IMG/VR virus record: IMGVR_UViG_3300039106_000351
Coordinates: 1 to 55,993 of that record
Length of the DNA stretch: 55,993 bases
Origin: a virus
Direction: 5' to 3' (one strand)
Part shown: piece after piece, positions 9,526-27,344 of the stretch
Numbering within the stretch: position 1 is the stretch's first letter
Layout of the letters: each line of letters begins with the position of its first letter
Position numbers and translations under genes: made by a program
Notes under the pieces: model-generated
Databases searched by the model: none
Told to the model about the DNA's origin: nothing
Seen by the model: the letters and a program-made list of their open reading frames with translations, nothing else

Positions 9526-12500
9526 TTATTTCAAATAAGGAAGCCATGATCCAATATCAATATATCCTCCATCTTTAAATATTGGCCCACCATATTTTCC
9601 TCCTGCTACTGGATCTACGTCAGCTACTCCAGCTACTCCAGGATAAGAGTTAGGTGGTGTCTGAGCATAATTAGTATCTTGTGATTTATTTTGAGACTCC
9701 ATCCTTCTACGAGCACAAGCTGATGGGTCTTTATCTTTTCTTGCTACACACCAGTCATATGCTTCATCAAAAGCTGCAGAACTACTACTAGTATCAATTT
9801 GATGATCTTTACCTTGTGTAAAATGCATTCTACCACCAACTCCTGGACTAACAGCATATTGTGGATACATTTGATTTGTTGCATCTGTTTTCCATCTATT
9901 AGTAATTGCGTTAGTAAATTGATTTACAAGGTTATTTCCAGCTGCTCTTTTACTATTATCATATTGTTGATTACCAATAGTATTTTCTCTATATAGTAAG
10001 GCTCCAGCATTAGAATTTGCAGTTCTTTCTTGATTCATAATATCTGTACCTTTAAGTTCAAAAGCATCTCCTATTCCTACATTTTTATTATCATAGGCAC
10101 TTAATGTATCTGCTGCTGATTTTGCAAGTTGTGATTGTATACCAGTTGATCTAGTTGATAATTCTTGTCCTCCTGCAAACCCTTCTAATCCTGCTGTAAG
10201 CATACTAGCATCTTCACGTTGTCTAGCAAGTTCTCTTGTAGGATCAACAAAGTTAGGTCTAGGATCTTGCATATCAAATCTTTGTGCCATAGGCCCATAA
10301 TTTTTAATACCTGCTAAATTAGCAGCTGCAGCAGCTGTTTTTATAGTATCTTGTAACCACCATTCTGCTGGTGGAGCTGGTTTATTTATTGTTACATCAT
10401 CTTCACATGGAGGACATACACCATTTACTGGTTCTAAATATACTAATCCTTCTGGTTTTTGACATGGACATTTTTTAGTTTTTTCAGGAGGTGTACAAGT
10501 ACATTTACCATCTTTATCTACATACTTACTATAAGTAGCTGTATTAGTTGGATCTGTACATTGACAGTCAGTATTTTCTACAACATCTTCAAAAATATTT
10601 TCTCTAGTAGCTGACATATATCTATGTCCTGTTGTTGTATCTCCATATGTAGTATTTTTTTTAGGTCCTCCATACCATGTATTATTAGCATAATCATATT
10701 TATCATCTAAAGGAGATATTTTAGCACCCATTGGTCCATATAAAGCACCCATTGATTTTTCATCATCTGCTCCTGAATGAACCATACTTACATTTCCTAA
10801 GAAATTATCCATAGCATATTGAGCATCTGGGTTATCTGCAAACTTTTTATCTGTAAAATCTTTATATGCTTGTGCATATCCATGCATTGTTGCTTGTTGT
10901 AATACTCTATCTTTTCCTAATGGATCAAGAGGCACACCTAAAGTTTCTACAGTTTTTGCAATAGTTGTAAATCCTTTACTTGTTAAACGTGCTAAAGCAT
11001 CTTTAGCTTCTTGTCTAGTATATAATTGTCCTGTTTGTGGATTTTTATATCCTTTAGCTATTATTTCATCAACTGTATCTAATCTACCACCACCATCACT
11101 AAATATTTGAGGATCTATATCATTTGCATCAAACATTAAATTTCTTTTTTGATGATTTAATGCTTGTTTTATAATTTCTTCATCAGATGGAAGAGTACCA
11201 TATTTTTTAGTCCATGTATCATTTGGATTTGCATTAGCTACATTTTTTCCTTTCCAAGCTTCAGGATTTTCTATAGCTGCTTTTGTATTTTTAATTATTT
11301 CAGCTTTAACTGTAGGATCATCTAAATTCTGTTTAATTAATAAATATTGTGCAGCTGCCATTCTTCCAGATTCTGTATCTGGAAAACCTTGTAAATCATG
11401 GGCATTAATATCTTTTCCAGTTGGAACTGACCATTTTGATTCTTTTAATATTTGAGTTTTAACTTTTCCATCAGCTCCTGTTCTAGTTACAGTAATTTGT
11501 ACTTTTGGATCTTTTTGTTGAGCATCATAAATTGCTCTCCTTAATGCAGCATCATCCATTTTTGTTGCATCAATAATAATTTTACCATCTTCAGCTTTTG
11601 GTAAGTTATTACTTCTAGAATAACGTCTATTAGAATAGTTGTCAATTACTGCACCTTGTTTAGCTTCTGGCATATCATAGAAAGGCATGTCATAACCACC
11701 CATTGCCATACCATAAGCTGCCATAGGAGCTTGTTGCATTTGTTGCTGTTGCATAGCCATCATCTCTTCTTCAGAAGGCTGACCTTGTGCCATTCCTTGA
11801 CCTTGAGGTTGTTCTACTTGTGACATTGATTGTTGTACAAGACCTGCTGCTTCTTGTTCAGAAGCTCCAAGTTGTACAAATATCTGTACAATTGCTTCCG
11901 GTGGAAGATTATTTTGTAATAAACTTAATACAATTTCAGGAGGAGAAATACCTTTTTGTAAAGCAGCTTCAACCTCTTGAATTATTTCCATCATCTGTTC
12001 TTGATCACCTCCTTGAGTTTGACCTTGTTCAGCTTGTTGTTGCTGCATCATCATCATCTCCTCCTCAGAAGGTTGTGCCATACCTTGTTCTGCTCTTCTT
12101 AATCTTCTTTGTCCACCCCATCTCATCATTTCTTGTTGTGCTCCTTGCATTTGTTGCATGATACTACCAATTAATTGCTGTACTTGATCTTGAGGCATTC
12201 CTAATTGAACAAATATTTGAGCAACTTGCTCTGGTGGAATTTGAGATTGTATTAATTGAGCAGCTACTTCTTCAGGAGCAGCTCCTTGTTGAAGAGCTTG
12301 TCCAACTTGTTGCATAATTTGTTGCATCTGATCACCACCTCCTTGTTGTTGTTGCTGTTGCTGTTGTTGCATCATCATCATTTCTTCTTGTGATGGCTGT
12401 TGCATTCCCTCTTCTGCTCTTTTTAATCTTTTCATACCTCCAAATCTCATCATTCCTTCTTGAGACATAGGTTGTTCTGCAGGTTGTCCTTGTGCAACAG

Positions 12501-13260
12501 GTTGTCCTTGATTCATACTCATTGCTTGAGCTTCTTGATTTTCTGAACCTAATGTTTCAGCAGAATTTTCTTGTTGTTCTTGTTGTTCTTTTTGTTTTTT
12601 AAGTTGACTATTTAAACCAGATAATTTTTCATCAGGTAAAATATCTTCTTCAGTTAATCCTCTTGCTTGCATACAAGGTTTAGCAACAACAGGAATTCCT
12701 TGAGGAAATCCTTTCATTGATTCTTGTTCTAAAGCTAAACAACCAAGTTTAATTACATATTTTTTTATCATTAATTCAGCAGTTCTTTTTTCTATTGCAT
12801 CTGAATTAGAATCTTCTAATATTTTTCTATACTTATCAACATCATAGCGTTTAGCAATAGCAGCTGGAGTATAACTACCAGACTTAGTTGTAAGACCAAA
12901 AGATTTTAAAACTTCTGGATCTTTAATTCTCATTCCTGGAGTATCACTAAAGATAAAAGTATCTTCTGGTAAACTTAAAGGTACTCCACCATGTGTATGT
13001 CTTGGACCTTTAATAATTTTATGTTCTGGAATACCATCACCATTTATATCTCCATAAACAGTTTCACCACCTTCAGCTTCAATATTAGCTTTATCTACTG
13101 GAACAGCTTTAATATATTTACTTTCTATTAATTTTGATTCTTCACTAGTAGTATTACGGTTACTACTAGCCATTCCAGCAAAGTCATTAAATAATGCACC
13201 TTGAACTTGCATTCCAGTTTTTGCTTGTGGTAACTTTTTAATTTTTACTTTGTAAAACAT
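9526..13260 (-). CDS. Virion cargo-type protein with tandem Gln/Met-rich helical modules and LPKA-type motifs, 1244 aa
   Basis: It starts MFYKVKIKKLPQAKTGMQV, an N-terminal copy of the LPxAxxG motif shared with neighbouring cargo genes. Residues about 60-120 contain EGGETVYGD and GPRHTHGGVPLSLPEDTFIF, a block I recognise from large crAss-like internal proteins. Two tandem modules follow, each made of a GG-x-[RK]-R-L-[RK]-RAE-[EQ]-GM lead, an EEMMMMQQQQ linker and a helical unit (PPEQVAQIFVQLG in one, PPEAIVQIFVQLG in the other). A further NNLPKAEDGKIII motif comes next, then a Cys-rich segment (CQCTD, CTCTPPEKTKKCPCQKP, CPPCEDD), and a conserved C-terminal region around PAEWWLQDTIKTAAAAANLAG. 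The C-terminus ends with a GG-rich tail. The poly-Gln runs are unusual for a phage. It is probably packaged with the genome (inference). Confidence 0.8.
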   Translation of the reverse strand: MFYKVKIKKLPQAKTGMQVQGALFNDFAGMASSNRNTTSEESKLIESKYIKAVPVDKANIEAEGGETVYGDINGDGIPEHKIIKGPRHTHGGVPLSLPEDTFIFSDTPGMRIKDPEVLKSFGLTTKSGSYTPAAIAKRYDVDKYRKILEDSNSDAIEKRTAELMIKKYVIKLGCLALEQESMKGFPQGIPVVAKPCMQARGLTEEDILPDEKLSGLNSQLKKQKEQQEQQENSAETLGSENQEAQAMSMNQGQPVAQGQPAEQPMSQEGMMRFGGMKRLKRAEEGMQQPSQEEMMMMQQQQQQQQQGGGDQMQQIMQQVGQALQQGAAPEEVAAQLIQSQIPPEQVAQIFVQLGMPQDQVQQLIGSIMQQMQGAQQEMMRWGGQRRLRRAEQGMAQPSEEEMMMMQQQQAEQGQTQGGDQEQMMEIIQEVEAALQKGISPPEIVLSLLQNNLPPEAIVQIFVQLGASEQEAAGLVQQSMSQVEQPQGQGMAQGQPSEEEMMAMQQQQMQQAPMAAYGMAMGGYDMPFYDMPEAKQGAVIDNYSNRRYSRSNNLPKAEDGKIIIDATKMDDAALRRAIYDAQQKDPKVQITVTRTGADGKVKTQILKESKWSVPTGKDINAHDLQGFPDTESGRMAAAQYLLIKQNLDDPTVKAEIIKNTKAAIENPEAWKGKNVANANPNDTWTKKYGTLPSDEEIIKQALNHQKRNLMFDANDIDPQIFSDGGGRLDTVDEIIAKGYKNPQTGQLYTRQEAKDALARLTSKGFTTIAKTVETLGVPLDPLGKDRVLQQATMHGYAQAYKDFTDKKFADNPDAQYAMDNFLGNVSMVHSGADDEKSMGALYGPMGAKISPLDDKYDYANNTWYGGPKKNTTYGDTTTGHRYMSATRENIFEDVVENTDCQCTDPTNTATYSKYVDKDGKCTCTPPEKTKKCPCQKPEGLVYLEPVNGVCPPCEDDVTINKPAPPAEWWLQDTIKTAAAAANLAGIKNYGPMAQRFDMQDPRPNFVDPTRELARQREDASMLTAGLEGFAGGQELSTRSTGIQSQLAKSAADTLSAYDNKNVGIGDAFELKGTDIMNQERTANSNAGALLYRENTIGNQQYDNSKRAAGNNLVNQFTNAITNRWKTDATNQMYPQYAVSPGVGGRMHFTQGKDHQIDTSSSSAAFDEAYDWCVARKDKDPSACARRRMESQNKSQDTNYAQTPPNSYPGVAGVADVDPVAGGKYGGPIFKDGGYIDIGSWLPYLK
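11700..12420 (-). repeat. Tandem protein-coding repeat: two helical modules with Gln/Met-rich linkers
   Basis: Inside the 1244-aa gene, two related units lie back to back. Each has a basic GG/RAExGM lead, an EEMMMM plus poly-Q linker coded by CAA/CAG microsatellite DNA (for example 12343-12370), and a PPExxxQIFVQLG helix pair. A third, shorter EEEMMAMQQQQ linker follows. The pattern suggests segmental duplication, possibly helped by slippage in the CAA/CAG tracts. Confidence 0.75.
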
Positions 13261-13269
13261 AATATAAAT

Positions 13270-16200
13270 TTATATATATTCAATTTGACCTCCAGCAGCT
13301 AAATACTGTTGAATTTGTTCTTCTGTCATATAAGCTTCATCATCATTTAATTGTTCTTGTTGTGGCAAATAACCATCTGTATAATAATTATATGGTTCTG
13401 CATATCCTCCGTTTGCCATATATCTACCATATTTAGCCATTGGTCCCATACCAAGAGTATCATTACCCGTAGTACCTTCATAAGAATTACCTGAATTAGG
13501 ATTCCACTTACCTTTATTTATTCTTGCCGTATCACCAGAAACTTGAGTTGCTCCCCAATTATTATCATAAAGTTCTTTTTGTTGATTTTTTCTTTCAAAG
13601 TTATTTAAAACTCCTATGCCAGCTCTTATTCCAGTATTACCTACATTTAACATAGCTTCTGGATCAAAAGTTTTCATATTTTGTACCTTATTTTCTACAC
13701 CAACATATTTTTTTTCATCAGCTTTATAATTAGGATCATAACAAGGACTATTAGGATCTAATACTTCATCTTCATTACAAGGACCTGTTCCACCTTCTCC
13801 TATTCCTCCTTGATTTTCAAATTCACTATTTGTTTTTTTAATAGACTCACCAAGATAATCATAACCAGGAGATCCAAATCCTGTATAAGATGTAGGTGTA
13901 TTAATCGGATTCCCATCTTGTGAAACAGAAGATGAAGCTAAGAAAGGAAATTGAATTTCTTCTCCATTAGCAGCTTGTGGTAAATAACCACCATAAGCCA
14001 TTTCTGTATTGATTGGTCCTACATTATTAATAGGATAACCTTCAGGCATAGGTTGTGGTATAGCAGGTTGCTCTGGTAAAGTTAATTGACTTTTTAAATA
14101 TGCACCTCTTGGGTCCCCTGGAGGAAAAAAACTTAATGGTAAAGGTGCTCCAACATTTGAATTCTCAATTACTGGAATAGAAGTTTCAGCACTTCTAAGT
14201 CTACCTTTACGGTCAATACCCATTGGAATACCATTAGGATCTAATTTAGTTTGATACATTTGGTTTCTACCAATTTTCATTCCTTCTACATATTTAGTAC
14301 CATTAGGTTGAATTCCTGTATTACTTGTTCTATTTCTAGAACGTCCTAAATTATTCTCAAGTTCTTTTAAACTTTCTAAATTAAGACTAGCACCAGCACC
14401 AGAACCAAAAGAAGACACATCATAAATATCTAAATATTTTTTAGGTCTACCAAACATACCTGTTTTAGTTACATACCTTGCTACAGCATCTTTTGGTAAT
14501 TGACCAGTATATGGATTTCCACTATTTATATAATAAGGATTTTTTGTTTGTTTTCCATAAGATCCTCTTGATCTTAATATTGGATTCCATGGTAATATAG
14601 TATCCCATAATCCAGGATTGTTTGCTGTAATTTGAGTATTATATTTTATACTAGCTAATGGAACACAATCACCATATTCAGCATTATATACAAAACCAGC
14701 AGGACATTCTTTAACAGTTTTTCTGTCAATGTCATCTCTGTTTTGTATGTTAGATACATTTGAATTATAAAAATCTAAATATTTTTCAAAATCTCCAACT
14801 CTGTTTGCTTCATTAGTAGCTTTCATGTATTCAGTTTTCCAACTGTCATAAGCATCTTTTTCAGTTTGATCTGTAATAAGATTGTCTCCAGGATTATTAC
14901 CTGCAGTAGCTCCTGGCCAATTGTCTGGATTAGTTTGATCATCTAACCATTCTTGATAAGCTTGTTTATCACTTATCATACTAGTTCTACCTGATTTATT
15001 TTTTACTTCTACTCCATTTCTAGCTTCATAAAGACCATATGGTTGATAGTATTTATCTTCATCACCACCATACATAAACTTTGTAAGTGGATTTTCAGCA
15101 TTCATATCTATGAATCCTCCAAATGCTCCTACTGGATTTTGAACTACTTCTTCTTCTCCAACTAAATTTTCTTTAGGACCATCTTGCATTATAAGATTCA
15201 TGATCTCAGGATTGTATTTAGCATTTTCATATACTTCTTTTGAAATAGCTTTATTAGAATTATTTTTAAGTTTTTTAATAAAAGTAGATTTTAAATCAGA
15301 AATATCATTTGTTAATGTATCTTGTCTTACACCTTGTCCTATTTTATTATCTTCAGTTTGTCCACCTTCATCAAACATTAAAGATAATTTTGTTATAAAT
15401 TTCTTTTTAGTAATACCACCTTTTTTAAAGTCATCACTTGGTATATCTGTTGATAAATTTTGATTATGTCTATAATAATTTCTTTTTTTATCTGAAAAAC
15501 CTGGTTCAATATATTGCATAGAATCAGGTCCTTTTAATATTTTTGGATCTATTTCACCTTCATTTGAACGGACAACATCCTCAAGTTGTCTTGATGGTCC
15601 CATTGCACCTATATCAGTACCACAAGGACAATTATTATTAAGATCTGGTTCCATATAATTAGGTTGACCAGGATCTACACATTGACAAGGATTTGCAATA
15701 GCATCATATGTTTGATAACCAGCATAACCTAAACCAGTACCAAGAAGAGAACCTTTTAAACCTAATCTAAATTTATAATTTTTAGCATTTTTAATATCTG
15801 CTGCTGTTTTAGCAAAAGGAATATCTACAGGATTTACTAAACCTTGTCCTCCTAATGTATTAACATAACCAAAAGCAGGAAGATCAATTGCTTGTATATT
15901 ACTTTTATTAGTTCTAAAAAATTGATTTAATCCAGTAGTTCCATAGGTTTCTAATCCTCTAGAAATTTGCCCTCTAAGACTTAAATCTGGACGAGGTGTA
16001 GGTGGAAGACCTGTAACATTAATTCCTTCTCCACGATTAAAATTTGGAAAATTAGTGTTTGAATCTCTAAGAAGACTCTCTTGTAAAAACTGTGTTCCTC
16101 TTGTACCAAATGGTGGTTTAACTGTCCATTTAGTTTGTGTACCAAGCTTTAAAGGATTACCACCTGTATCAAAAATTTTTGTTTCACCTGTAGCAGCATC

Positions 16201-17676
16201 TTTAGTAAAATAAAATCTATTTTTAAATGTTATTTCTTGTGCTTTTTTTGGTGTTGCACCAAATGGTAATTGTTGATTAGGTCCAAATTTATTTTTAATC
16301 TCAAAGAAATTATTATCATTTTCATCTACTCCACTTATGATTTTAGAAGTCATAGGATATACACCACTAACTAAACCTTCTTCCATTGAAATAGGGTTTA
16401 TATCTGATAATGGAAAACTAGATTTACCTGACTCTATATTTTTAATTATATTATTTACATCATCTTGATATAAAACTAATTTATCAACACTTAAACTTCC
16501 ATCAAAAGCTGCTCTATCTCCACCAATAGTTGAGTTTTTACTAAATATTCCTTTTGTAGGTTCTAATCCATTTAGAACATTCCACAATTCATATCTGTTT
16601 TGTGTAAAAGGTGTTTCTAATTTAGGTCCAAATTTCTTTCCTATCCAAGGTAAATTAGATATACCTTGTCCAACCAATGAAGCAAGAGGTGCAGCTTTAC
16701 GTGCTCCTGATATATTTTGCATTGGATTATTTTGATTTATATAATCAAAACCATATTTTATTTTATGTTCTCCAGGTATATATGCATCATCTATAATGGG
16801 TTGTACAGGAATATTTTGCTGAATTGGCATATTAAAATTAGGTGCTACTTTAGATACCTTTTGCATAATTGATTCCATTCCTGGAAGAGCTTCTGCTTTA
16901 TTTAAAGAAGAAAGTAACCTTTGAAATTCAGATTCTGGTTTTAAAAATTTAGTAAGACCTTTTGCAGTTTTACCAATAATTTCTAAACCACCGTCAGCTC
17001 TTGGTAATTCATCTTCTTCAGATTCTGTTTTATAACTTCCAAAATAATTTTCTAAATCAGAAAAACTGTCTGTTCCTTCCATACCTGGTGTTACAGTCAT
17101 TAAGTCTTGAATAGAAAAAGGTTTTTGTTGTTCTCCACCATTACTATAAAATCCACCATATTTAGCTGAAAAAGCACCTTGTTGTTGTGATTGCTCAGTT
17201 TCTAAATGTGAATTGTCATCTCTATAAGAATCATCACCTTCATAACCTTCATTTGATAATGCAAGTTCTTCTTGTTCTGCATCACTTGATTCTCTTTCTG
17301 CAACTTCATTAGGATCTTCTGATTGGTCTACAGGTTGTCCATCTTCTGAAACTTCTGGATTTACTTTATCTAAAAGATCAGGATTTAAATATCCTTCTTC
17401 AGTAAGTTTAGTTATAGCAGCTTGAATAATATTTAAAGATGTAGTCTGATCTAAAGCATATTCTGTAATAAGTTTATTATAAACTAAATCAGGTAAGCCA
17501 CTATTTTTTATTGTTGAATAAGTATAGTCATATATTTTATTAAGTCTTGCCGGATCCATTACTGAGGAAGACATTTGCATACCATTACTAGCTTTTTTTA
17601 AAAACTTAGATGCATTAGTAATATAACCAGGAGTTTCTCCTGGAAGAGCTTTTCTAATTCTTACTGTTTTTTTCAT
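13270..17676 (-). CDS. Modular virion cargo-type protein with GG/LPxA junction motifs, 1468 aa
   Basis: The N-terminus reads MKKTVRIRKALPGETPGYI and then FLKKASNGMQM, resembling the starts of adjacent cargo genes. An acidic stretch (residues about 105-165) precedes AKYGGFYSNGG. Internal junction motifs include ELPRADGGLEIIGKTAKG (about residue 225), FKKGGITKKKF, GLYEARNGVEV and GGYLPQAANGEEI. Paired-Cys motifs appear as CQCVDP/NNNCPCGTD and as ECPAGFVYNAEYGDC. The tail carries MANGGYAEP and ends in MTEEQIQQYLAAGGQIEYI, a relative of the module-end motif seen in the two genes before it. It has its own upstream GTATATTA element. I recognise no enzyme in it. The modules look like variable payloads joined by common linkers, which is inference. 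Confidence 0.75.
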   Translation of the reverse strand: MKKTVRIRKALPGETPGYITNASKFLKKASNGMQMSSSVMDPARLNKIYDYTYSTIKNSGLPDLVYNKLITEYALDQTTSLNIIQAAITKLTEEGYLNPDLLDKVNPEVSEDGQPVDQSEDPNEVAERESSDAEQEELALSNEGYEGDDSYRDDNSHLETEQSQQQGAFSAKYGGFYSNGGEQQKPFSIQDLMTVTPGMEGTDSFSDLENYFGSYKTESEEDELPRADGGLEIIGKTAKGLTKFLKPESEFQRLLSSLNKAEALPGMESIMQKVSKVAPNFNMPIQQNIPVQPIIDDAYIPGEHKIKYGFDYINQNNPMQNISGARKAAPLASLVGQGISNLPWIGKKFGPKLETPFTQNRYELWNVLNGLEPTKGIFSKNSTIGGDRAAFDGSLSVDKLVLYQDDVNNIIKNIESGKSSFPLSDINPISMEEGLVSGVYPMTSKIISGVDENDNNFFEIKNKFGPNQQLPFGATPKKAQEITFKNRFYFTKDAATGETKIFDTGGNPLKLGTQTKWTVKPPFGTRGTQFLQESLLRDSNTNFPNFNRGEGINVTGLPPTPRPDLSLRGQISRGLETYGTTGLNQFFRTNKSNIQAIDLPAFGYVNTLGGQGLVNPVDIPFAKTAADIKNAKNYKFRLGLKGSLLGTGLGYAGYQTYDAIANPCQCVDPGQPNYMEPDLNNNCPCGTDIGAMGPSRQLEDVVRSNEGEIDPKILKGPDSMQYIEPGFSDKKRNYYRHNQNLSTDIPSDDFKKGGITKKKFITKLSLMFDEGGQTEDNKIGQGVRQDTLTNDISDLKSTFIKKLKNNSNKAISKEVYENAKYNPEIMNLIMQDGPKENLVGEEEVVQNPVGAFGGFIDMNAENPLTKFMYGGDEDKYYQPYGLYEARNGVEVKNKSGRTSMISDKQAYQEWLDDQTNPDNWPGATAGNNPGDNLITDQTEKDAYDSWKTEYMKATNEANRVGDFEKYLDFYNSNVSNIQNRDDIDRKTVKECPAGFVYNAEYGDCVPLASIKYNTQITANNPGLWDTILPWNPILRSRGSYGKQTKNPYYINSGNPYTGQLPKDAVARYVTKTGMFGRPKKYLDIYDVSSFGSGAGASLNLESLKELENNLGRSRNRTSNTGIQPNGTKYVEGMKIGRNQMYQTKLDPNGIPMGIDRKGRLRSAETSIPVIENSNVGAPLPLSFFPPGDPRGAYLKSQLTLPEQPAIPQPMPEGYPINNVGPINTEMAYGGYLPQAANGEEIQFPFLASSSVSQDGNPINTPTSYTGFGSPGYDYLGESIKKTNSEFENQGGIGEGGTGPCNEDEVLDPNSPCYDPNYKADEKKYVGVENKVQNMKTFDPEAMLNVGNTGIRAGIGVLNNFERKNQQKELYDNNWGATQVSGDTARINKGKWNPNSGNSYEGTTGNDTLGMGPMAKYGRYMANGGYAEPYNYYTDGYLPQQEQLNDDEAYMTEEQIQQYLAAGGQIEYI

Positions 17677-17692
17677 AATACTTATCTATATA

Positions 17693-17700
17693 TAATATAC
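17693..17700 (-). promoter_or_regulatory. Putative late-promoter element GTATATTA
   Basis: On the minus strand TTTAGTATATTATATATAG lies 16 nt before the ATG at 17676, in a 57-bp gap. It matches the core found before four other genes in this window. It would allow the last three cargo genes to be transcribed separately. Confidence 0.5.
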
Positions 17701-17733
17701 TAAATTTTAATTTAACAAATAAACATTAAAAGT

Positions 17734-20700
17734 TTATTCTTCTTCAATGATATAACCTCCTTTAACATATTCCTCTATTTCTTTTTGAGATAGTTTTGTT
17801 ACTACTCCACCATTTTTATTTTTATATCCAGATTGTTTACTTATTTGTTTCCAAGCATCTTGTACTGTAAGTGGTTTACTAATGTCACTTTCCCATTTTT
17901 CAAGATCCTGTTTACCCATTTTTATAACTATCTGTCTTCTCCATTTTTCAAGTTGTTCTGGTGATGCATTTAAAACTTCTTCTAAACTTAAACCAAGTTT
18001 ACCTCTCATTTCACTAACAACAATTTTAGCAGGACCTGTTTGTAAAAAATCATTTCCTTTCTGATTTTTTAATAATTGTTGATATGTTTTAGGTAAAGTT
18101 TCAAAACCAGTATTTATTGTTTTTAATGATTCTACCTTAAGCTTACCTTTGTTTGATAAGTTATTTCCCCATGCATAGTTTTTTTGTAACCAAGCTTCCT
18201 GTTCAGGTTGGAGAATCTTACTCCTAAAATTTGGTAATCCTACATTGGGAAATAAATTAGAAAATAATTCATCTCTAGAAGTATCTCCTCTTACATTATT
18301 ATAACCTTTAAATTTTAAAAATGCATCAAGTGCAGCATTATTAGGATCATCAGGATACATTTTATTAAAGTTTTGCCATGCTGTTTGCCATTGATTTTGT
18401 TGAGTAATAAGTTTTTTTAATTCAGAGTTAGTAAAAAAATCTTCTTTTCCAGGTACCCATTGTGGTCCAGATGGTTCAATACCAAATGATGCTAAATTTG
18501 AAAGATCATTTCTTACTTCCCAACCATCTGACCCAGCAGCAAAATTAAAATCACCTACTCCTTCAAATGTATCTTTACCATATGGAGGTTTATTTGATAA
18601 ATATTTATCTAAAGAATTATTAGCATCTATGTTAGCTTCATTTTTCCAATCTTTTATTCCTGGATAATCTAAAGGATCTGCATGATAAAAAGATTCACCT
18701 TGAAAAGGTTCATCACCATATTGTATTAATGAATTTCCTCCTGTTGTATTAGAAAGATTTTTTAAATCAACCATAGGAACTTCACTTACACCTTTAAAAT
18801 AATCTAGAGCAGGAAGAAGTTGATTAACTTTTAAATTCATTCCTTTATCTAAATTTCTAATTGGAATTTTTGAAACAGAATTAGGAATATTTAATCCTTT
18901 TATACTTCTTACTATTCTTCCTATATTAGCTTTAGGTAATGATCCACCTTTTTTATATTGACCTCTCCATCCAGTATTAAAATTATTAATTATGGAATTT
19001 TTATTATTTTCCATATCTAAACGATCTTGAGCAGACATGTTTTTAAGATCAGTAAACTTAAATGTAGGATCAATTGTTCCTATTTTATTCCCTGTACCAC
19101 TAAGCCAATGTCTTGTATTTAATCCAGTTGCATTTGATAAACCTATAGTCTTATTAAATGAATCACGTGCTGATTGACCTACAGTACCTTTTGATTGACC
19201 TGAATTAAAATATATTTCTTCAGGTAATAAAGATTTATTTAAATATCCAGATTCATATAAAGGTTTTTTATTTACAATATATTTTTGATACCAATCTTGC
19301 CAATTTCCAGTACTAAAATCAGTAGGTAATTGAACTTTAAATTGATATGGTCCATAAGATTGTTTTTCAGGTAAAGAAGCTAAATACATTCCATCCATTC
19401 CATACATATCAGGTAAACCAGCTCTATATCCATATTGTTCCATAGGTATATGAGTAGCTTGATATGCAGCAAGAGATAATGGATCTGCTCTATTTACATT
19501 AGCTAAATCCATATTCTCAACTTCACTTCTAGGATTATCATATCTTCTTCTATACATATCAAATGTTCTATGACCATAGCCATCTAAACTTACACCTCTT
19601 GGATTAAAATCTCCTTTAACTTGCCTATAACCTGTTCTATCATGATCAATTGCTAATTGCATAATTTTATTCATGCTATCATTAGTTCTTGCCATTTTAA
19701 ATAAATCTTCAGCCCCAACATCATTTCCAACATAACCTAAATTTTTTAATGCATCAGCTGCATTACGTCTATTTGCAAATTCTAAAGTACTTCTATCAAA
19801 GTTTGAAAGATCACCTATATTATAATCTGATGCTGGTTGATTATATATATCACCTAAAACATCATATGGATTATCTGTTTTACTTAATATATCAGTTAAT
19901 AAATATTGTGAATCCAAATTACTTATAGGATTAATCATATCTAATATAGGCTGTATATTTGGATTTTTATAAACACTATTAGCTATATTTTGATATATAG
20001 CAGGCATTAATATATTTTTAGTAGGTGTCTTAAATTCATTTATTAATTTTCCAGTATTTTTTAAAATTTCTAAACCATTCCAAGCTTTAGGAAGTGAACC
20101 TCCTTTTTTATATCCAAGTAGTTTAGGATTAAATTGTATATCAGAGTTTGAATTAGATTTAATTAAAGGATTAAACTGATATCCTTCAGGTGAAGGTCTT
20201 AATAATATTTCTTCTACTGTTAAAGGTTTAAATCTATTTTCTCCAAAATTAAATTTATAATTATTTTTTAAATTAAAAGCTGGTGATTCAACAATACCAA
20301 CTTTTCCAGAATCAATATTAATTGGATAAGTTCTATTAAAACCTGGAACCATAGTAGTTCTATTTGGTACTGATGTTAAATTTCCAAGATTTGCTGAAGC
20401 ATTAGATCCAACTTGATTAGAATATATACCAGCATCAGGATGAAATTGTTTATATAAAGTATTTATATTTTTCCTAGTATTAAGTCCTAACTCTGAAGCT
20501 AAGGCTTCATTACTAGTAGCATATGAAAGATTTGGTGCAGGTATATTTGCTTGTTTAAAACCATAATATTTACCACTAGGTGTTGTAACACCTAAGTTAA
20601 ATGCTTTAGTTGGAGTTTGTCCATATCTTAATAAATTTGTAGTTGCTCTAAGTGGAGACATAACACCCTGTATTCCCATTAAAGCATCCCATGCTGCAGT

Positions 20701-22734
20701 TCCATAATTTCCTTCTTGAAAATTAGTTCCTGCATTTGAAAAATTTTGAGGAGCTTGTAATGCAAAACCTGCATTAAATGCAGGATTACTAAAACCAGAT
20801 AGAAGAGCACCTACTCCTTTTCTAAAACCAGCACCCTTAGCAAGATTACCAAGTGCATTAGCACCTTTAATTGGTGCAACTGCCATTCCTGCATTTGATA
20901 AACTTTCTCCTAAAGAACTCCAAAAATGACCATTATCATAACCTTGTCTTACATCTGCACCTACTTTTATAGGATTTGCAGCATTAAACATATTATGAAA
21001 TACTCCTAGTGGAGAATCATAATTTATGGTTCCCATATCTACACCAGTCTCATCTTTAATTTTTTCTCTTTCTGTATAAGACATGTTACTATTACCCCAC
21101 ATTGTTTTACGAGGATTCATCCAAGCATCAAATGCAGGAATAGGATTGTATAAAACATCTTTAACTTTATCCCAAGGATGATCATTTATATTATATTGAT
21201 TTGTTCTACCTTCTGATATTGCATCATCATTTCTACCAAAATTATTACGTGACCATGCAAAATTTATATTACTTTTAATATCTTCATCATTAAAAAGATT
21301 GTTTAATGTTTCATTTTCTCCAGTTATTGTACTTTTTCCAATATCATCATTAAGGGATTTTAAAAATTCTATTTGTGTTTTTGGATCATTTTTTATAGCA
21401 TTTAATTTTTTTTCTACTCCAGATTTTAATATATCAGCACCAAAATTTTGTTTATACAATGTTAATGCATCTATAGCATCTTTATTTTTTGCTTCATATC
21501 CAACAGCAGTTCTTTTATCAATATCTTTTTTAAGATTCATTTGATTAAGACCTAATATATTTTGTTCTCTAACTTTAGCATTTGTATCTCCATACATAAG
21601 ATTACCAAAACTTTCTGTTTTATCTATAAGATTTTTATTTTTTTCTGCTTGAGCTTTGTCATATTCAGAAAGAGCATTGGTTTGATTATTAAATTGTTGA
21701 AATTGATAAGCAAAATCATTTGGATGATTAGCATCATTCCAAGATGCTACTGGATCATTTGATTTTCTAAATATATTTTCACCACTAGCAACTTGATCTT
21801 TATCTGTTGAAGGTATTGAATTAACTATATTTTGTTGTGTAGAATTAAAAAGATCAGTAATAATTTTTTCAGTAGATTTTTTAAAGTCCTTTGTTAAACC
21901 TGCTTGTCCTCCAAGTTTTGTAGGTAATTCACTAATAACTTGATCTACAGTTTTTCCTTCTTTTAAAGCTCGTGTTACTATTTTATTAGTCATGGTATTT
22001 GTAAATACCTCATGTGCAAGTTTCATTGTTGGTTCAAATTCAGAAGTAATTTGTTCTTTATCAAACCCCCATTTTTCAAAGTCACTAACTTTATATCCAT
22101 TATTCATTATCCTATTGTTCATTATTTCTCTAGGATATAATTCTATCTTTCCTGTTTTTTTATTTTTATTTATATAATAAGCATTTTTAATTTCTTTTTC
22201 TTTTTCAGGTGTAACATCAGATGGAGAAAGTATTAAAATAGGTTCTGGTTTTATAAATTTTGTCTTAAGATTTTTAGTATTTGCTTCTTTATATTTATCA
22301 TAATAATTTTTTACAGTACCTTGCCATGCAATATTTTGTTTTTTTATACGTTCAGTTTCTTCTTTTATATATTTATCCTCTGCCATTTTTTGTTTAGCTG
22401 CATCTTCAATAGCCCAACCTTCTTCAATTTTAGTAACTCTCAAACGATCTTGTCTATCCTGTTCTTGTAATTCTTGAGGTGTTACACAACCTCGGTCTAT
22501 GCCATCCATTCCTATACCACCATAAACTTTACCTGGAGGACATCCTTGTGTTGTTCCATAACCTTTAGTAGACTCAGTCATATATGGAGATTGCATTTGA
22601 TCCCAATATGAAGATGGTGCAATACCTTGAACTGGTACTGGCTCAGGTGTTACATTTTCTTTATTTAAAATAGTTAAACCTTTTTTAGCTTGTGGCAATG
22701 ATTGAGGTATACTAGTTATTCTATATTTTGCCAT
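17734..22734 (-). CDS. Three-module virion cargo-type protein with repeated YKKGGSLPKA junctions, 1666 aa
   Basis: It starts MAKYRITSIPQSLPQAKKGL, an N-terminal LPxAxxGL motif, followed by a CPPGKVYGGIGMDGIDRGC paired-Cys motif. The first module (to about residue 880) is helical and charged. Around residue 765 it contains GLNTRKNINTLYKQFHPDAG, which resembles helix II plus the HPD loop of a J-domain, though a full domain is not visible. Module 2 begins at YKKGGSLPKAWNGLEI and module 3 at YKKGGSLPKANIGRIV, near-identical junctions each followed by an amphipathic helix. The C-terminus is LSQKEIEEYVKGGYIIEEE, also present inside the preceding gene's product. The stop lies 2 bp before the preceding start region ends, so the genes are tightly linked. 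Known function is lacking; an ejected multi-domain cargo is the likeliest reading. Confidence 0.78.
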   Translation of the reverse strand: MAKYRITSIPQSLPQAKKGLTILNKENVTPEPVPVQGIAPSSYWDQMQSPYMTESTKGYGTTQGCPPGKVYGGIGMDGIDRGCVTPQELQEQDRQDRLRVTKIEEGWAIEDAAKQKMAEDKYIKEETERIKKQNIAWQGTVKNYYDKYKEANTKNLKTKFIKPEPILILSPSDVTPEKEKEIKNAYYINKNKKTGKIELYPREIMNNRIMNNGYKVSDFEKWGFDKEQITSEFEPTMKLAHEVFTNTMTNKIVTRALKEGKTVDQVISELPTKLGGQAGLTKDFKKSTEKIITDLFNSTQQNIVNSIPSTDKDQVASGENIFRKSNDPVASWNDANHPNDFAYQFQQFNNQTNALSEYDKAQAEKNKNLIDKTESFGNLMYGDTNAKVREQNILGLNQMNLKKDIDKRTAVGYEAKNKDAIDALTLYKQNFGADILKSGVEKKLNAIKNDPKTQIEFLKSLNDDIGKSTITGENETLNNLFNDEDIKSNINFAWSRNNFGRNDDAISEGRTNQYNINDHPWDKVKDVLYNPIPAFDAWMNPRKTMWGNSNMSYTEREKIKDETGVDMGTINYDSPLGVFHNMFNAANPIKVGADVRQGYDNGHFWSSLGESLSNAGMAVAPIKGANALGNLAKGAGFRKGVGALLSGFSNPAFNAGFALQAPQNFSNAGTNFQEGNYGTAAWDALMGIQGVMSPLRATTNLLRYGQTPTKAFNLGVTTPSGKYYGFKQANIPAPNLSYATSNEALASELGLNTRKNINTLYKQFHPDAGIYSNQVGSNASANLGNLTSVPNRTTMVPGFNRTYPINIDSGKVGIVESPAFNLKNNYKFNFGENRFKPLTVEEILLRPSPEGYQFNPLIKSNSNSDIQFNPKLLGYKKGGSLPKAWNGLEILKNTGKLINEFKTPTKNILMPAIYQNIANSVYKNPNIQPILDMINPISNLDSQYLLTDILSKTDNPYDVLGDIYNQPASDYNIGDLSNFDRSTLEFANRRNAADALKNLGYVGNDVGAEDLFKMARTNDSMNKIMQLAIDHDRTGYRQVKGDFNPRGVSLDGYGHRTFDMYRRRYDNPRSEVENMDLANVNRADPLSLAAYQATHIPMEQYGYRAGLPDMYGMDGMYLASLPEKQSYGPYQFKVQLPTDFSTGNWQDWYQKYIVNKKPLYESGYLNKSLLPEEIYFNSGQSKGTVGQSARDSFNKTIGLSNATGLNTRHWLSGTGNKIGTIDPTFKFTDLKNMSAQDRLDMENNKNSIINNFNTGWRGQYKKGGSLPKANIGRIVRSIKGLNIPNSVSKIPIRNLDKGMNLKVNQLLPALDYFKGVSEVPMVDLKNLSNTTGGNSLIQYGDEPFQGESFYHADPLDYPGIKDWKNEANIDANNSLDKYLSNKPPYGKDTFEGVGDFNFAAGSDGWEVRNDLSNLASFGIEPSGPQWVPGKEDFFTNSELKKLITQQNQWQTAWQNFNKMYPDDPNNAALDAFLKFKGYNNVRGDTSRDELFSNLFPNVGLPNFRSKILQPEQEAWLQKNYAWGNNLSNKGKLKVESLKTINTGFETLPKTYQQLLKNQKGNDFLQTGPAKIVVSEMRGKLGLSLEEVLNASPEQLEKWRRQIVIKMGKQDLEKWESDISKPLTVQDAWKQISKQSGYKNKNGGVVTKLSQKEIEEYVKGGYIIEEE
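18905..18965 (-). other. Internal junction motif (YKKGGSLPKA), second copy in the 1666-aa protein
   Basis: It codes QYKKGGSLPKANIGRIVRSI. The core YKKGGSLPKA is identical to the copy at 20065-20120, in a different protein context on both sides, so it looks like a reused linker, processing site or fused former N-terminus. Confidence 0.7.
20065..20120 (-). other. Internal junction motif (YKKGGSLPKA), first copy in the 1666-aa protein
   Basis: It codes GYKKGGSLPKAWNGLEILKN. The part after GG resembles the true N-termini of this gene and of the gene at 9526-13260 (LPQAKxG followed by a hydrophobic residue), as if a second protein had been fused in frame here. Confidence 0.7.
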
Positions 22735-22736
22735 GA

Positions 22737-25700
22737 TTAAATTGTTTCAAATGTATAACCTAAACTTTCTAAATATTTTTTAGTTTCTTCATCTACCTCA
22801 TCTCCTAGTTCATAATCAGTTTCTCCACCTTCATTATATTTTCTAGTAAGTCTATAATTAGGAATTTTAAAAGATCCAAGAGGATCCCAATAAGCTTTTT
22901 CACTAAAACCTTTTTTAAATATATCTTCATTTAATAAATTAACAGCTTTATCAATATCTGATTTTGGAGCTGTCCTAGCACTTAATATAAAATCACGACT
23001 ATTTATTCCAGGTATTATATCATCAAATAATTTACTATGTATTGACATAGTATTTAATGGAAGATAATTTTCATGATTTATATCCCAATCTTTTCTTTTT
23101 CCCATATTCAATAGCGCATTAAGGGAATCTAAACTTAAACTACTTGTTTCTAATATAGAAGGATTTGGTTTTGGAAAAACTTCATTCATTATTTTCATTG
23201 CTCTTCCAGATTCAAAAGGATTATACATTGAAGATGTAAAATGCCAATCATTATCATTGTTACTATAATTATTTTTAGCTACTTGCCAAAAACCACTATC
23301 ACCTTTTACTTGAAATGGAAAACTTACATTTTTTGGATCAAAATTAGTAGGAATATTTTTTAAGTTTATTTCATCAATAGGAGAATCTGCAAAATTAGAT
23401 TCTAATTCTGTATAGTCTGAGTATTCAGGACTTGTATATAAATCTTGATATGGAATTTGATATTGATTATTTTGTGGATTTAATTGTAATAATTCTGTAT
23501 AAGTAGGAGTTTCTCTAATTTGATTATTTAACATCTCAATCATTTGATCACTATGAGAAAGAGGACGAGTTTGATTATTCAATATATTTTGTTCAACCTC
23601 TAAAGCAGGAGGAAGTATTGTACTTGTTGCTCTAGCAGCATTTAATAATGTAGCATTTACTGGAGCAGTAACTTTACCTAACTTAGTTAACTTACTTAAA
23701 AAAGGTATACCTTTTTTAGCAACAACTTCTAGACCACCATCTGCTCTTGGTAAAGCTTTAGATACTTCTTCAACAATATAGCCATCTTTAATATACTTAT
23801 CTATTTCTTTTTGGGAAAGATTAGCATTTATATAATTTTGTTCTCCACCTTGTTTAAATATAAGAGGTTTATTACCAAATAAATGTTTACCTCTTTTATC
23901 TGTATATGAAGTAGGTATATTTATTTTTTCACATTTACATTTTTCACAAGGTCTTTCATAACCATCTGGGCAATCTGCTTTTCCTACACCTTGTCCATCA
24001 AAATTTAATTGAATATCATTATTAATTGTAGGTTTTTCATTAGTTTCTGTTTCAGTTTCAGTTTCTGTTTCTATTTCTTCATTATCATAATTGTTTCTTT
24101 CAGGCATTCTAGCACTTACTTTTCTTTTTGTTTCACCAAGTGGTATACTATATCTAACATTGCCATAAAAATTTGGAGTTAATGGTACACCCTCACGTTG
24201 TTTTCCACCCTCATAATTAAGTCTTGCTCCTGCAGTAGCAGAAAATATTCCTGGAATATTCTTAAATGGTTTTGCTTGAAATGTTAATTCCGGACTTAGA
24301 AAAGAAAGATCAAAAGGATCTCCTTTATCCATTTTATATTGATATGGTCTAGCTGTTTGAGTTCCATTTATAGCATCTTCTCCCATTAATCTTACTAGTT
24401 CATCTTCTTGTACTTTATTATAATCAGCACGTTGTTTTATTTGTGCATTAAATATATTTAATTTAGGTATAAAAGCCATGTCACCTTGTCTAGTTAAACC
24501 TTGACTATAATATCTATTAGGTGTTATTTTTTGACCATGTTTTCTTCTACCAAAAACACCCAACATACTTGCATCTATATTACCATATAATCCTGATTCA
24601 GGTGCATATCCTGCATGAGTACTAAATGCTCCTGTAAAAGGACCATTTGAAGAACTTCCAAAAGCATTACCAACTAAATCATAACCAATATCTGCTGTAA
24701 AAGGTAATCCTTTTTTATATAAAGGTTTTAAATTAGCTAAGTTTTGTGCAGCTTGATAACTATTAAAAGTTGCTGCATTATTTCCACCAGCTGTTGCATT
24801 TTGCCAAAAGTTTTGATATGCAGGATTATTTTGATTACCTGCATCATTATAATCCCAAGAAGTATTAGTACTTAAATCTAATGTAGGATTTGTTAAATCA
24901 GCAGCACTTGTATTATATGGTCTTCCTAATGTAAATGATAATGCATTACTAGCTGCATCCATTTTCTTAAATAACTTTGGATTTGTATAAGTTAGACTGT
25001 AATTTGGATTTCTATTATAATTACCTATTTGTCCATAGTTAGATCTAAAATCAAATGGTGTAGCTGTTATAGAACTTTTATCTCCAAGACCTATTGCATA
25101 TCCACCTTCAGCTTTAGGTAAAGAACCTCCATCTTCATAGTACTTTGCATTAGGATCATAGATTTTATTCTTTCTAGATTTAGCTTTTGCAAAGAATGGA
25201 TGTACTGCAAATAACTTATTAGTTGCTTCTAAACTTCTAGAATATGCTTTTTCATTTCTACGATTTGGTAATCTAGATCTACTACTTCCTCCATTTTTAA
25301 AATCATTTCCAAAATCTTTTGGTTTTTCTAATGTTGGATCATCTATAGAAGTATAGTCTGATGTTATTTCTTCTCCTACTTGTATATCTTTAATAGCTTT
25401 TAAATATCTTTTATTACCTTCAACTATTGATTCAGTATTAGTATCTTCAGAATGATTATGATAAGCTCCTAAAATTGGTGTTGCATTACTTGTTATATAT
25501 TCATTTCCATTTTTTGAATAAGATGATTTAACATGTGATAAGCCAATAATTTCTCCAGCTCTTATAGGTTCTTCAGCAAACAAACCTTTACCATGTATAT
25601 TAGATTTTTTTACATTAACTTCTTTTTCAGGATAATCTCCAATAGCAGGAGCATTATGTTCTGATCTACCTAGTACTTCATAATCTTGTGTATCTCCACC

Positions 25701-27344
25701 TTCTGTAAATTTATTTAGTCCACCACCATATTTAAAATCACCATAAAGTTTTACATACTCTTCACGATTCATTCCATATTCATTTAAAAGATCTTCATTC
25801 TGTTTTCTAATTAGTTTATTTTCTTCTTCACTATTTGCCCACTTTTTATTATATTTTTTTTGCTGTTTTTTATCTCTTAAAGAACTTGCTCCTTTAAAAT
25901 TTATTTGTCTACCTTCTTGTTCTGCTTTTTCAATTTCACCTGGAATATAATTACCTTCATCATCTTCATAACCCTCCATAAATTTTCTATCATATCCTGT
26001 AGCTTTTTGAACCATTTTAGGAATAAATCTAGTTACTTCTCTTTCTCCAATATCAATATTTCCTCTTGTTCTTGGTATACCTTTATCAAATAATCTTTTA
26101 ATTGGATTAATTGGTAATTTAACACCAAATGTAGGAACATCCATATAAGTATCTGTAGGAGAATAACTAGGTCTATCAACACCTTGTTCAAATTCTAATT
26201 TTGGATACATTGATTCTATAGAAGGATCTGCATATTCATATTCTAAAGGTGTTTCTGATTCCCAATCAAATTCTTTAGGGGGCAAAAGATTATTATAAAG
26301 ATTTGTATTTTCATATAAATAATCATTACCAACTTTATATCTTTGTCCATGTCCATATGAACAATCTTTACAAAGATATTTATAGTTTTCTTTAACTGTA
26401 CCAGGTCTTCCTTTATAGAAGTCTTCATAAGAAACATCTTTTGGAACATAACCTAAATATTCTGGATCATTATAAAATTCTTGAGCACGTTTTTCTTCAG
26501 CTCTTACTTTTTTTGGATCCCATCCTTCTTTATATATATCTGAAGGAATGTAAGTATTTCCATCTGCATCTACTATAGGTTCTGCAGATGTATAATAATC
26601 AGAAGAAACTTTAGGTAACATAACAGGTATACTATCAGATTCTTGAATATTAAATCCTGCATCTGTTAATTTTTGAATATTCTGTTTTTCTAAATTTTTT
26701 AATTTTTCCCACTCTTTATATTTTCTAGCTTGATGAGTATTTTCAGAATTTACATAATAAATATTTTCAGTTTTATTAAAACCTTCTGGTTTAGATGGAT
26801 CAATAACTACTTTATAATTTAAATCTGGATATCTTCTTATGGTAGCTAAATCTTTTAAATCATCATTATACGTATTTTTATAATTTGGATGTGTAACAGT
26901 TAATTGTGTTTGTGCTTCTGGAAAATATACTGGATTTTGTATTTGTTCTATATTTAAATCTTCAGGCCAATCATTTTTATATTTTGAAGTTAATTGATCT
27001 GGTGTAGCTGTAGTAAAGTCATTTGTTCCTCTAGGTTTAACTTTTACAGTAGTCTTTCCTTCTTTCTGATAATTAGAAATACATCTTCCTGATTTTGGAT
27101 CAAATGTAAAGTCATCTGGACAACCTGATGTTTTTTCACATCTTTTAGTTTCTGAATTCCATTTATAATCTTTAGGACATGTAGGATTACCTCCACCATC
27201 TAAAAACTTAAGTAGTCCACCTCTTTTCATAGTTGGCATACCCATTTGATTAAATGGATTAACAATAATATCTTTTTTAACTGCAGGTGCTTTTACACTA
27301 TCTAGTTTTTTAAGAGCATCAATAAGAACTTTTTTATTATACAT
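22737..27344 (-). CDS. Modular virion cargo-type protein with embedded SET-domain methyltransferase, 1535 aa
   Basis: The start codon overlaps the stop of the stabilization-protein gene (TAATG), indicating coupled translation. The N-terminus carries RGGLLKFLDGGG and two paired-Cys units (CPKDYKWNSETKRC at 56-69, CPDDFTFDPKSGRC at 75-88). After FKYGGGLNKFTEGGDT, a SET domain spans about residues 570-668: SNIHGKGLFAEEPIRAGEII, then GAYHNHSEDTN, then IQVGEEITSDYT. A GGSLPKAEGGYAI junction (near residue 745) leads to a Gly/Asn-rich module. A short GAAACN repeat (ETETETETE), a CPDGYERPCEKCKC cluster, the LSQKEIDKYIKDGYIVEEV motif and ALPRADGGLEVV then lead to the last module. SET enzymes transfer methyl groups from S-adenosylmethionine to lysines. 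The target is unknown, and packaging in the virion is inferred from neighbours. Confidence 0.85.
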   Translation of the reverse strand: MYNKKVLIDALKKLDSVKAPAVKKDIIVNPFNQMGMPTMKRGGLLKFLDGGGNPTCPKDYKWNSETKRCEKTSGCPDDFTFDPKSGRCISNYQKEGKTTVKVKPRGTNDFTTATPDQLTSKYKNDWPEDLNIEQIQNPVYFPEAQTQLTVTHPNYKNTYNDDLKDLATIRRYPDLNYKVVIDPSKPEGFNKTENIYYVNSENTHQARKYKEWEKLKNLEKQNIQKLTDAGFNIQESDSIPVMLPKVSSDYYTSAEPIVDADGNTYIPSDIYKEGWDPKKVRAEEKRAQEFYNDPEYLGYVPKDVSYEDFYKGRPGTVKENYKYLCKDCSYGHGQRYKVGNDYLYENTNLYNNLLPPKEFDWESETPLEYEYADPSIESMYPKLEFEQGVDRPSYSPTDTYMDVPTFGVKLPINPIKRLFDKGIPRTRGNIDIGEREVTRFIPKMVQKATGYDRKFMEGYEDDEGNYIPGEIEKAEQEGRQINFKGASSLRDKKQQKKYNKKWANSEEENKLIRKQNEDLLNEYGMNREEYVKLYGDFKYGGGLNKFTEGGDTQDYEVLGRSEHNAPAIGDYPEKEVNVKKSNIHGKGLFAEEPIRAGEIIGLSHVKSSYSKNGNEYITSNATPILGAYHNHSEDTNTESIVEGNKRYLKAIKDIQVGEEITSDYTSIDDPTLEKPKDFGNDFKNGGSSRSRLPNRRNEKAYSRSLEATNKLFAVHPFFAKAKSRKNKIYDPNAKYYEDGGSLPKAEGGYAIGLGDKSSITATPFDFRSNYGQIGNYNRNPNYSLTYTNPKLFKKMDAASNALSFTLGRPYNTSAADLTNPTLDLSTNTSWDYNDAGNQNNPAYQNFWQNATAGGNNAATFNSYQAAQNLANLKPLYKKGLPFTADIGYDLVGNAFGSSSNGPFTGAFSTHAGYAPESGLYGNIDASMLGVFGRRKHGQKITPNRYYSQGLTRQGDMAFIPKLNIFNAQIKQRADYNKVQEDELVRLMGEDAINGTQTARPYQYKMDKGDPFDLSFLSPELTFQAKPFKNIPGIFSATAGARLNYEGGKQREGVPLTPNFYGNVRYSIPLGETKRKVSARMPERNNYDNEEIETETETETETNEKPTINNDIQLNFDGQGVGKADCPDGYERPCEKCKCEKINIPTSYTDKRGKHLFGNKPLIFKQGGEQNYINANLSQKEIDKYIKDGYIVEEVSKALPRADGGLEVVAKKGIPFLSKLTKLGKVTAPVNATLLNAARATSTILPPALEVEQNILNNQTRPLSHSDQMIEMLNNQIRETPTYTELLQLNPQNNQYQIPYQDLYTSPEYSDYTELESNFADSPIDEINLKNIPTNFDPKNVSFPFQVKGDSGFWQVAKNNYSNNDNDWHFTSSMYNPFESGRAMKIMNEVFPKPNPSILETSSLSLDSLNALLNMGKRKDWDINHENYLPLNTMSIHSKLFDDIIPGINSRDFILSARTAPKSDIDKAVNLLNEDIFKKGFSEKAYWDPLGSFKIPNYRLTRKYNEGGETDYELGDEVDEETKKYLESLGYTFETI
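23695..23835 (-). other. Module-end motif followed directly by module-start motif
   Basis: It codes FKQGGEQNYINANLSQKEI, DKYIKDGYIVEEV and then KALPRADGGLEVV. The first part matches the C-terminus of the next protein (LSQKEIEEYVKGGYIIEEE), while the second part matches internal and N-terminal starts elsewhere. This is the clearest place where a former C-terminus appears joined to a former N-terminus. Confidence 0.65.
24043..24078 (-). repeat. Hexanucleotide microsatellite coding Glu-Thr repeats
   Basis: About six copies of a GTTTCW unit on the plus strand (GAAAC on the coding strand) encode ETETETETE inside the SET-containing cargo protein. It is in frame and may vary in length between relatives, acting as a flexible acidic linker. 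Confidence 0.7.
25335..25635 (-). other. SET domain (lysine methyltransferase-like)
   Basis: Within the 1535-aa protein, the order SNIHGKGLFA, PIRAGEIIG, YHNHSEDTNTESI, YLKAIKDIQVGEEITSDYT matches the SET fold: the GxG-type cofactor loop, the NHS pseudoknot segment (here NHSEDTN in place of NHSCDPN), and the GEEIT-x-DY end with a catalytic-type Tyr. The post-SET Cys cluster is absent, which is common in bacterial and viral SET proteins. Confidence 0.85.

Follow-up and report, generated by a model that had tools for sequence, protein, structure and literature searches.

Paired sequence tags at the ends and putative module boundaries of giant post-muzzle proteins in a Crassvirales-like phage

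A 56-kb virus record (IMGVR_UViG_3300039106_000351), analysed here over all of its 55,993 nucleotides and called the window, encodes four very long proteins next to its muzzle gene, and short related peptides recur at the ends of these proteins as well as inside them. What these peptides are for, and how proteins of this kind evolve, are the questions that the locus raises. We know of no account of the way in which crassviruses choose their protein cargo, several megadaltons in all, and load it.

Pfam matches to the muzzle and to the capsid (PF23898) identified the window as coming from a Crassvirales-like phage. The four giants of 1535, 1666, 1468 and 1244 aa (giants 1 to 4) lie 3' of the muzzle gene and are followed by a 1062-aa protein; in related contigs, two vRNAP-like proteins of ~2000-4300 aa come after the cargo block. 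At least 599 IMG/VR stretches were related to the capsid and 16 relatives had muzzle matches, and 11 large contigs were read. The relatives are mostly metagenomic fragments, and their ORFs were called mechanically. The phages that carry the giants are aquatic relatives of the gut crAss phages, forming a lineage of the Crassvirales. Close capsid relatives (L248-L253) also occur in metagenome bins (MAGs) labelled Campylobacteraceae, Pseudomonadales and several Bacteroidota, but these are probably binned free phage contigs, so that the labels give no host evidence. Leptolyngbya phage Lbo-JY46 (L245) has a cyanobacterial host on record, yet its muzzle is crass-like and its cargo genes have the same order and tags. 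Features of the window are collected in Table 1.

Table 1. Positions of the muzzle gene, the giants, their tags and boundary motifs, and the small tag-bearing proteins in the window.
Feature	Position	Strand	Sequence, basis or remark
Small basic protein, 142 aa, by capsid gene	44246..44674	-	ILPKAKMGL and KKGG motifs
Small basic protein, 207 aa, by capsid gene	43471..44094	-	looser TLRKANNGT and YKKGG motifs
Muzzle protein	27344..32842	-	Pfam PF25731, E 9.5e-23; genomic anchor for cargo block
Giant 1, 1535 aa, modular, probable virion cargo	22737..27344	-	internal junctions and SET module
GG-type boundary motif 5' of SET module	25692..25736	-	KYGGGLNKFTEGG (aa 538-550) / FKYGGGLNKFTEGGD
SET domain module, giant 1 aa 585-664	25353..25592	-	Pfam PF00856, E 6.4e-8
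Boundary motif GGSLPKAEGG, giant 1	25101..25130	-	within DGGSLPKAEGG (aa 738-748); starts module common to L164 and G016
Complete composite junction, giant 1	23730..23825	-	C-tag ANLSQKEIDKYIKDGYIVEE (aa 1174-1193), then VSK, then N-tag ALPRADGGL
C-terminal tag of giant 1	22740..22814	-	ELGDEVDEETKKYLESLGYTFETI; class of giants 1 in genomes with separate giant 2
Giant 2, 1666 aa	17734..22734	-	only in a subset of relatives
N-tag of giant 2	22675..22734	-	MAKYRITSIPQSLPQAKKGL
Internal motif of giant 2	20071..20112	-	YKKGGSLPKAWNGL; homology to L219 giant 1 begins
Internal motif of giant 2	18919..18957	-	YKKGGSLPKANIG; next module's boundary
C-tag of giant 2	17737..17814	-	NGGVVTKLSQKEIEEYVKGGYIIEEE
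Giant 3, 1468 aa	13270..17676	-	
N-tag variant of giant 3	17578..17604	-	FLKKASNGM (relatives: FLKKAQMGG)
Internal motif of giant 3	16975..17010	-	ELPRADGGLEII
Internal motif of giant 3	13951..13989	-	GYLPQAANGEEIQ
C-tag of giant 3	13273..13356	-	DDEAYMTEEQIQQYLAAGGQIEYI (relatives: EGDEVYMTEEEIEEFLANGGEVEYL)
Giant 4, 1244 aa	9526..13260	-	aa 46-210: conserved domain, also in phi4:1 gp040
N-tag of giant 4	13198..13260	-	MFYKVKIKKLPQAKTGMQVQG; predicted disordered
Motif copies in giant 4	12079..12441	-	GGMKRLKRAEEGM and GGQRRLRRAEQGM, one per copy of ~110-aa tandem repeat
Internal motif of giant 4	11572..11610	-	NNLPKAEDGKIII
C-terminal GG-type end of giant 4	9529..9606	-	AGGKYGGPIFKDGGYIDIGSWLPYLK

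Tags at native ends and inside the giants

The strings quoted in an earlier note, which had read the motif as a shared signal linking fused modules, were all found in the ORFs to which it had assigned them, including ELPRADGGLEII, ALPRADGGLEVV, GGSLPKAEGGYAI, NNLPKAEDGKIII and GGYLPQAANGEEI, the two copies of YKKGGSLPKA in giant 2 (aa 875 and aa 1260), and the N-terminal LPQAKTGM of giant 4 and LPQAKKGL of giant 2. KRLKRAEEGM and RRLRRAEQGM are likewise present in giant 4, but they are copies within a ~110-aa tandem repeat and were rejected as independent motifs. In the window ORFs, LP[KRQ]A..G was observed 10 times, compared with 0.10 in residue shuffles. The density of LP[KRQE][AM]..G in 12 related proteomes was 3.69 per 10^4 aa for post-muzzle giants and 3.43 for small post-capsid proteins, against 0.12 elsewhere, and the three matches outside both clusters had a single common context, YTNYxxxLPKA. 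This near-absence elsewhere indicates that the motif is close to specific to the two gene clusters.

At true N-termini the motif takes the form of a basic strand followed by [LV]PxAxxG, as LPKAQxG or as ISVPxLxxAQxGG, and we refer to it as the N-tag. Among 237 giants with known starts, drawn from relatives that are not phylogenetically independent and searched with patterns written when some sequences had already been seen, 46 of the 115 LPxAxxG matches fell within the first 40 residues, which make up 3.6% of the sequence and where 0.26 matches were expected. The remaining 69 were internal (6.1 expected), and 13 of these came after a C-tag and 35 after GG. This strong enrichment at the true N-termini of relatives bears out the reading of the motif as a shared tag. 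Within A-x-x-G-G the first glycine is constant and the second is variable; at native N-termini the residue that follows A-x-x-G is Y, M, L, G, K or S (e.g. TGY, TGM, KGL, KGG).

The N-tag has a partner, overlooked in the earlier note, that directly precedes the motif in giant 1. This C-tag (consensus ELTDEEIEEYRKGGYIVE) comprises an acidic helix and then GGYIVE or a class variant, and it is found at true C-termini; in giants 1-3 the last residues are an acidic, helix-like stretch and then GGYIIE, GGQIEYI or LGYTFE. In 263 deduplicated post-muzzle proteins from about 60 related aquatic crass-like contigs there were, with the same provisos as to relatedness and choice of pattern, 87 terminal and 62 internal C-tag matches, while 1.7 were expected in total. 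A stricter pattern applied to 12 proteomes matched 20 times, always in a post-muzzle gene. Internal copies have the consensus YIEAELTDEEIEEYRKGGYIVE, in which L, E, I, Y, G, V and E are kept at 82-100%. What followed the internal C-tags (n=65) was LPxA..G in 13 cases, ISVPxL leading into AQxGG in 23 and another GG motif in 19. Since the C-tag stands directly before the N-tag at junctions, the motif noticed first is the second half of a composite junction, in which C-tag and N-tag of joined modules lie back to back within one protein. The consensus junction had no match among annotated phage records.

The motif had been described as a trait of the giants, where it does occur, but it is also present in two small basic proteins by the capsid gene (Table 1). 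Small proteins rich in lysine and glycine, with many KKGG, KMQxGG and PKAKxG motifs, form a rapidly changing cluster 3' of the capsid gene (including genes +2 to +8 in L002-L081). The vRNAP-like giants have no tags, and because their crAss001 counterparts are packaged, tags are not needed for packaging in general. In several relatives (L101 region; for example G016 69309-87554) the vRNAP-like proteins have a C-terminal or near-C-terminal cysteine (KNC, LKC, DC).

Joining or splitting of giants at tagged boundaries

Homology between giants is interrupted at the junctions. For the 84 junctions that could be tested, the fraction of homologues collinear across the junction averaged 0.11, compared with 0.37 at control points within those giants; the effect is large, and the resampling p-value of 5e-5 is optimistic because the proteins are related by descent. 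BLAST end points lay near motifs in 10.8% vs 4.9% of cases, only about a twofold difference, and for giant 1/giant 2 swaps the result was marginal (p = 0.05). This weaker signal is due to the tags themselves extending the alignments, which makes the collinearity test the cleaner of the two. In the relatives the motif lies at module boundaries and is enriched at N-termini, which favours the earlier reading over the refuting case that the note had set, a motif buried in a single conserved domain.

Individual pairs of genomes illustrate the pattern. Giant 1 of L214 has 324 aa and ends in a C-tag, and L215 is 61% identical to it over the full 324 aa, continues through the C-tag and ends 186 residues further on at a second C-tag. 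L207 (889 aa) stands in a similar relation to L229 (183 aa, consisting of a SET domain and a C-tag). Giant 1 carried a terminal tag of the [LIV]GDE[VI] type in 12 of 12 genomes with a separate giant 2 and in none of 43 without (nine by automatic classes, the other three reading IGDEIELTDEQV, VGDEVELTEAEV and LGDEVDEETK), a tally that is compatible with fusion and fission alike and in which the genomes with giant 2 may be one clade. In genomes without giant 2, giant 1 mostly ends in a giant-2-type tag, and the internal ISVPxLTKAQKGG resembles the start of giant 2, ITSIPQSLPQAKKGL.

Modules are common to different carriers and positions. In giant 2, homology to giant 1 of the relative L219 begins at the first YKKGGSLPKA (aa 876), while aa 1262-1640 are common to L138 and L139 and in part also to giant 1 of G016. 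In giant 1, a module of aa 739-1180 matches L164 and G016 junction to junction. This module, taken as aa 735-1180 (23805-25142), had no Pfam match, and a viral scan gave no further homologues; with alternating strands and many aromatic residues it resembles an outer-membrane beta-barrel, an unproven assignment given two or three homologues in all. The SET module of giant 1 has GG-type motifs on both sides (KYGGGLNKFTEGG and DGGSLPKAEGG), and in relatives SET takes the N-terminal position in giant 1. It is the only domain recognised in the window giants, Pfam having returned nothing significant for their remaining modules. An AlphaFold2 model of the giant-1 head and junction of a relative had a pLDDT of 49 and was unusable. 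At about aa 735-770 of giant 2, LYKQFHPDAG resembles the HPD motif of J-domains, for which Pfam gave no support, and tblastn of giants 2 and 4 against annotated phage records gave no matches.

The codons show at which level the tags are maintained. The two identical KKGGSLPKA peptides of giant 2 are written in different synonymous codons, which excludes both a recent duplication and an assembly artefact, and the internal and terminal tags within a giant had a codon identity of 0.61, against a background expectation of 0.60. We therefore rejected recent DNA duplication or gene conversion as the source of the tags; the constraint acts on the tag peptide and not on the DNA. The bias in codon use seen at some positions of the internal tags (L, I, V) is most simply explained by shared descent of the first giant-1 junction. 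Only two pairs were usable for pN/pS at junctions, which makes that measure uninformative.

On these sequence comparisons, it is highly likely that the giants are modular proteins joined at paired tags. The earlier note had derived them from in-frame fusion of tagged modules; the in-frame connection at tagged boundaries held up, but the events may have been joining or splitting. Such tags would explain how very long and variable phage proteins evolve, namely by genes joining or splitting at fixed points.

Probable virion cargo and possible roles of the tags

Proteins encoded after the muzzle in crAss001 are cargo and have been found in the virion (Bayfield et al., 2023; PMC10172136). Behind the N-tag of giant 4, which is predicted to be disordered, lies a confidently predicted domain (aa 46-210) that resembles gp040 of Cellulophaga phage phi4:1 (Foldseek E 2.2e-4, probability 1.00; hhalign E 0.0038), a protein annotated as a virion protein from MS/MS, as well as the csAssE-Sib homologue WOZ57299 (E 7e-5). 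Against the PDB the domain gave no relevant sequence match, no significant Foldseek match and no crassvirus chain in VIA-align, which excludes nothing. Between giant 4 and the next gene, L190:16309, L218:18739 and L229:19101 carry ORFs of ~164 aa (DDEDYYWLSQWNWNAV...) that are HNH-type homing endonuclease-like. Pfam recognised 13 distinct families in the giants of relatives (n=70), and the modules include SET (12 proteins), phage lysozyme, VanY, SLT (transglycosylase), YkuD, tail lysozyme, amidase, metallopeptidase, ART-PolyVal (ADP-ribosyltransferase) and DUF6782. SET, a lysine methyltransferase-type domain, is a module both here and in 12 of the 70 scanned giants. Gene position, the gp040 domain and enzyme content together indicate that the post-muzzle giants are very probably virion cargo (ejection) proteins.

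For the tags themselves we favour docking or loading, a role to which we would give about even odds. It is preferred because the tags are conserved not only at the two native ends but also at internal boundaries, because they also occur in the small basic post-capsid proteins, and because they are confined to likely virion genes. During assembly, a shared virion component (inner capsid, portal or tail barrel) would recognise each tag as a short docking peptide. Modules added to a giant would keep their own tags and would thereby be loaded and held in register, and they could be threaded out one by one at ejection. On this view the same docking site would also serve the small basic proteins that carry tags and are encoded after the capsid gene. 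Taken as a whole, the chain from modular tagged giants through virion cargo to docking or loading tags has a probability of roughly 0.5.

The tags could instead be processing sites, the giants being polyproteins that are cut between C-tag and N-tag or after AxxGG to release modules with native-looking ends. A cut inside the composite junction would indeed yield the type of ends seen in unfused relatives, and some modules of relatives are metallopeptidases, domains that have been proposed to process polyvalent proteins (PMC5512222). If the cut followed GG, as the earlier note had considered, a constant second glycine would be expected, but only the first is constant, and the tags are equally conserved at native termini, where cutting is needless. 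No prohead protease was recognised among known protease families in the ten capsid-adjacent ORFs of the window or among the best 25 of 43 Pfam families of the relative G016, and the crAss001 structure paper makes no mention of cleavage or a protease (PMC10172136). With the second glycine variable, uncut termini keeping the tag and no protease recognised, cleavage is unlikely.

We consider it similarly improbable that the junctions are scars or spacers, conserved flexible linkers that string modules together and let them unfold through the tail with no binding involved. Junctions do coincide with module boundaries, the giant-4 N-tag is predicted to be disordered, and in the crAss001 model cargo partly unfolds to exit via the tail (PMC10172136). 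A spacer would hardly need the specific residues that are kept in the internal tags and at free ends too, however, and the motif is also found in small, non-modular proteins. A role in the newly infected cell, with ejected proteins assembling into an envelope-spanning channel or binding each other after ejection, is less probable still: crAss001 gp45 has been proposed as part of an ejection channel (PMC10172136) and several modules of relatives are cell-wall enzymes, but small basic proteins whose genes directly follow the capsid gene carry the motif too, which speaks more for the inside of the particle.

Should the tags act as loading signals, as the docking or loading reading holds, the question of cargo loading becomes directly testable, and the candidate injected effectors of uncultured phages would be whatever sits between two tags. 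More tentatively, and at odds somewhat short of even, the paired tags may be a previously undescribed address system, in which a tag-flanked module is loaded into the particle, the phage adds, drops or exchanges injected effectors by in-frame fusion, and classes of C-tag direct their carriers to different places in the virion.

Comparison with known systems

The cargo protein C1 of crAss001, gp45, is present in 12 copies and binds portal and tail barrel (PMC10172136). As with the giants, its gene sits between the muzzle gene and the RNA polymerase genes, but crAss001 has one such protein of 842 aa, whereas the group of the window has three or four giants whose N- and C-tags are defined. The giant-4 profile matched residues 420-544 of the gp45 profile, in the portal-bound domain, only weakly (hhalign E 0.0067), so that membership of the gp45 family is not established. 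In gp45, the tail-barrel segment 214-245 is immediately preceded by GG motifs, which also lie at either edge of the portal-bound domain 425-552, and Steigviridae homologues have inserted or duplicated blocks with comparable GG motifs on their flanks. GG being common in these proteins, this likeness is a resemblance and no demonstrated relationship. In the gp45 homologue of the gut crassvirus DAC15 (L254:925-3420), a GG-flanked block IHIKKxNRGKFTxYCGGKVT...RKW occurs twice in tandem.

Phi4:1 gp040 (895 aa) and WOZ57299 (946 aa) share the giant-4 domain with the window, but they are single proteins with no LPxAxxG or C-tag matches. The giant-1 head motif IPSNSITMKGV is also present in gp040, so that two carriers appear fused in phi4:1. 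Lbo-JY46 has the same order after its muzzle (XAI97384-XAI97386), with the N-tag MKIRIIGLPKAQIGM and the C-tag EEIDLSPEEVAKLIELGYDFEVV at true ends; its proteins are short (484-674 aa) and without internal tag matches, which makes them an unfused counterpart of the giants.

The T4 capsid targeting sequence and the propeptides of giant-phage ejection proteins are short N-terminal peptides that direct cargo into the head and are removed by the prohead protease. Propeptides of this type are N-terminal only, while the tags described here are also internal and C-terminal. Double-glycine cleavage sites have a conserved GG before the cut, unlike the tags.

A limited literature search over openly licensed PMC papers agreed with the earlier note in that it yielded no described system built on this motif. 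The polyvalent proteins (Iyer et al., 2017; PMC5512222) are very long multidomain proteins of phages and conjugative elements that are thought to be packaged and injected. Like the giants, they combine several unrelated domains per polypeptide in shuffled architectures, and their characteristic ART, metallopeptidase and peptidoglycan-acting domains also occur in the giants of relatives, although the window itself has only SET. No conserved tag or junction motif has been described for them (the words linker and crass are absent from PMC5512222), whereas the giants have paired tags at their boundaries, as sites of fusion or fission.
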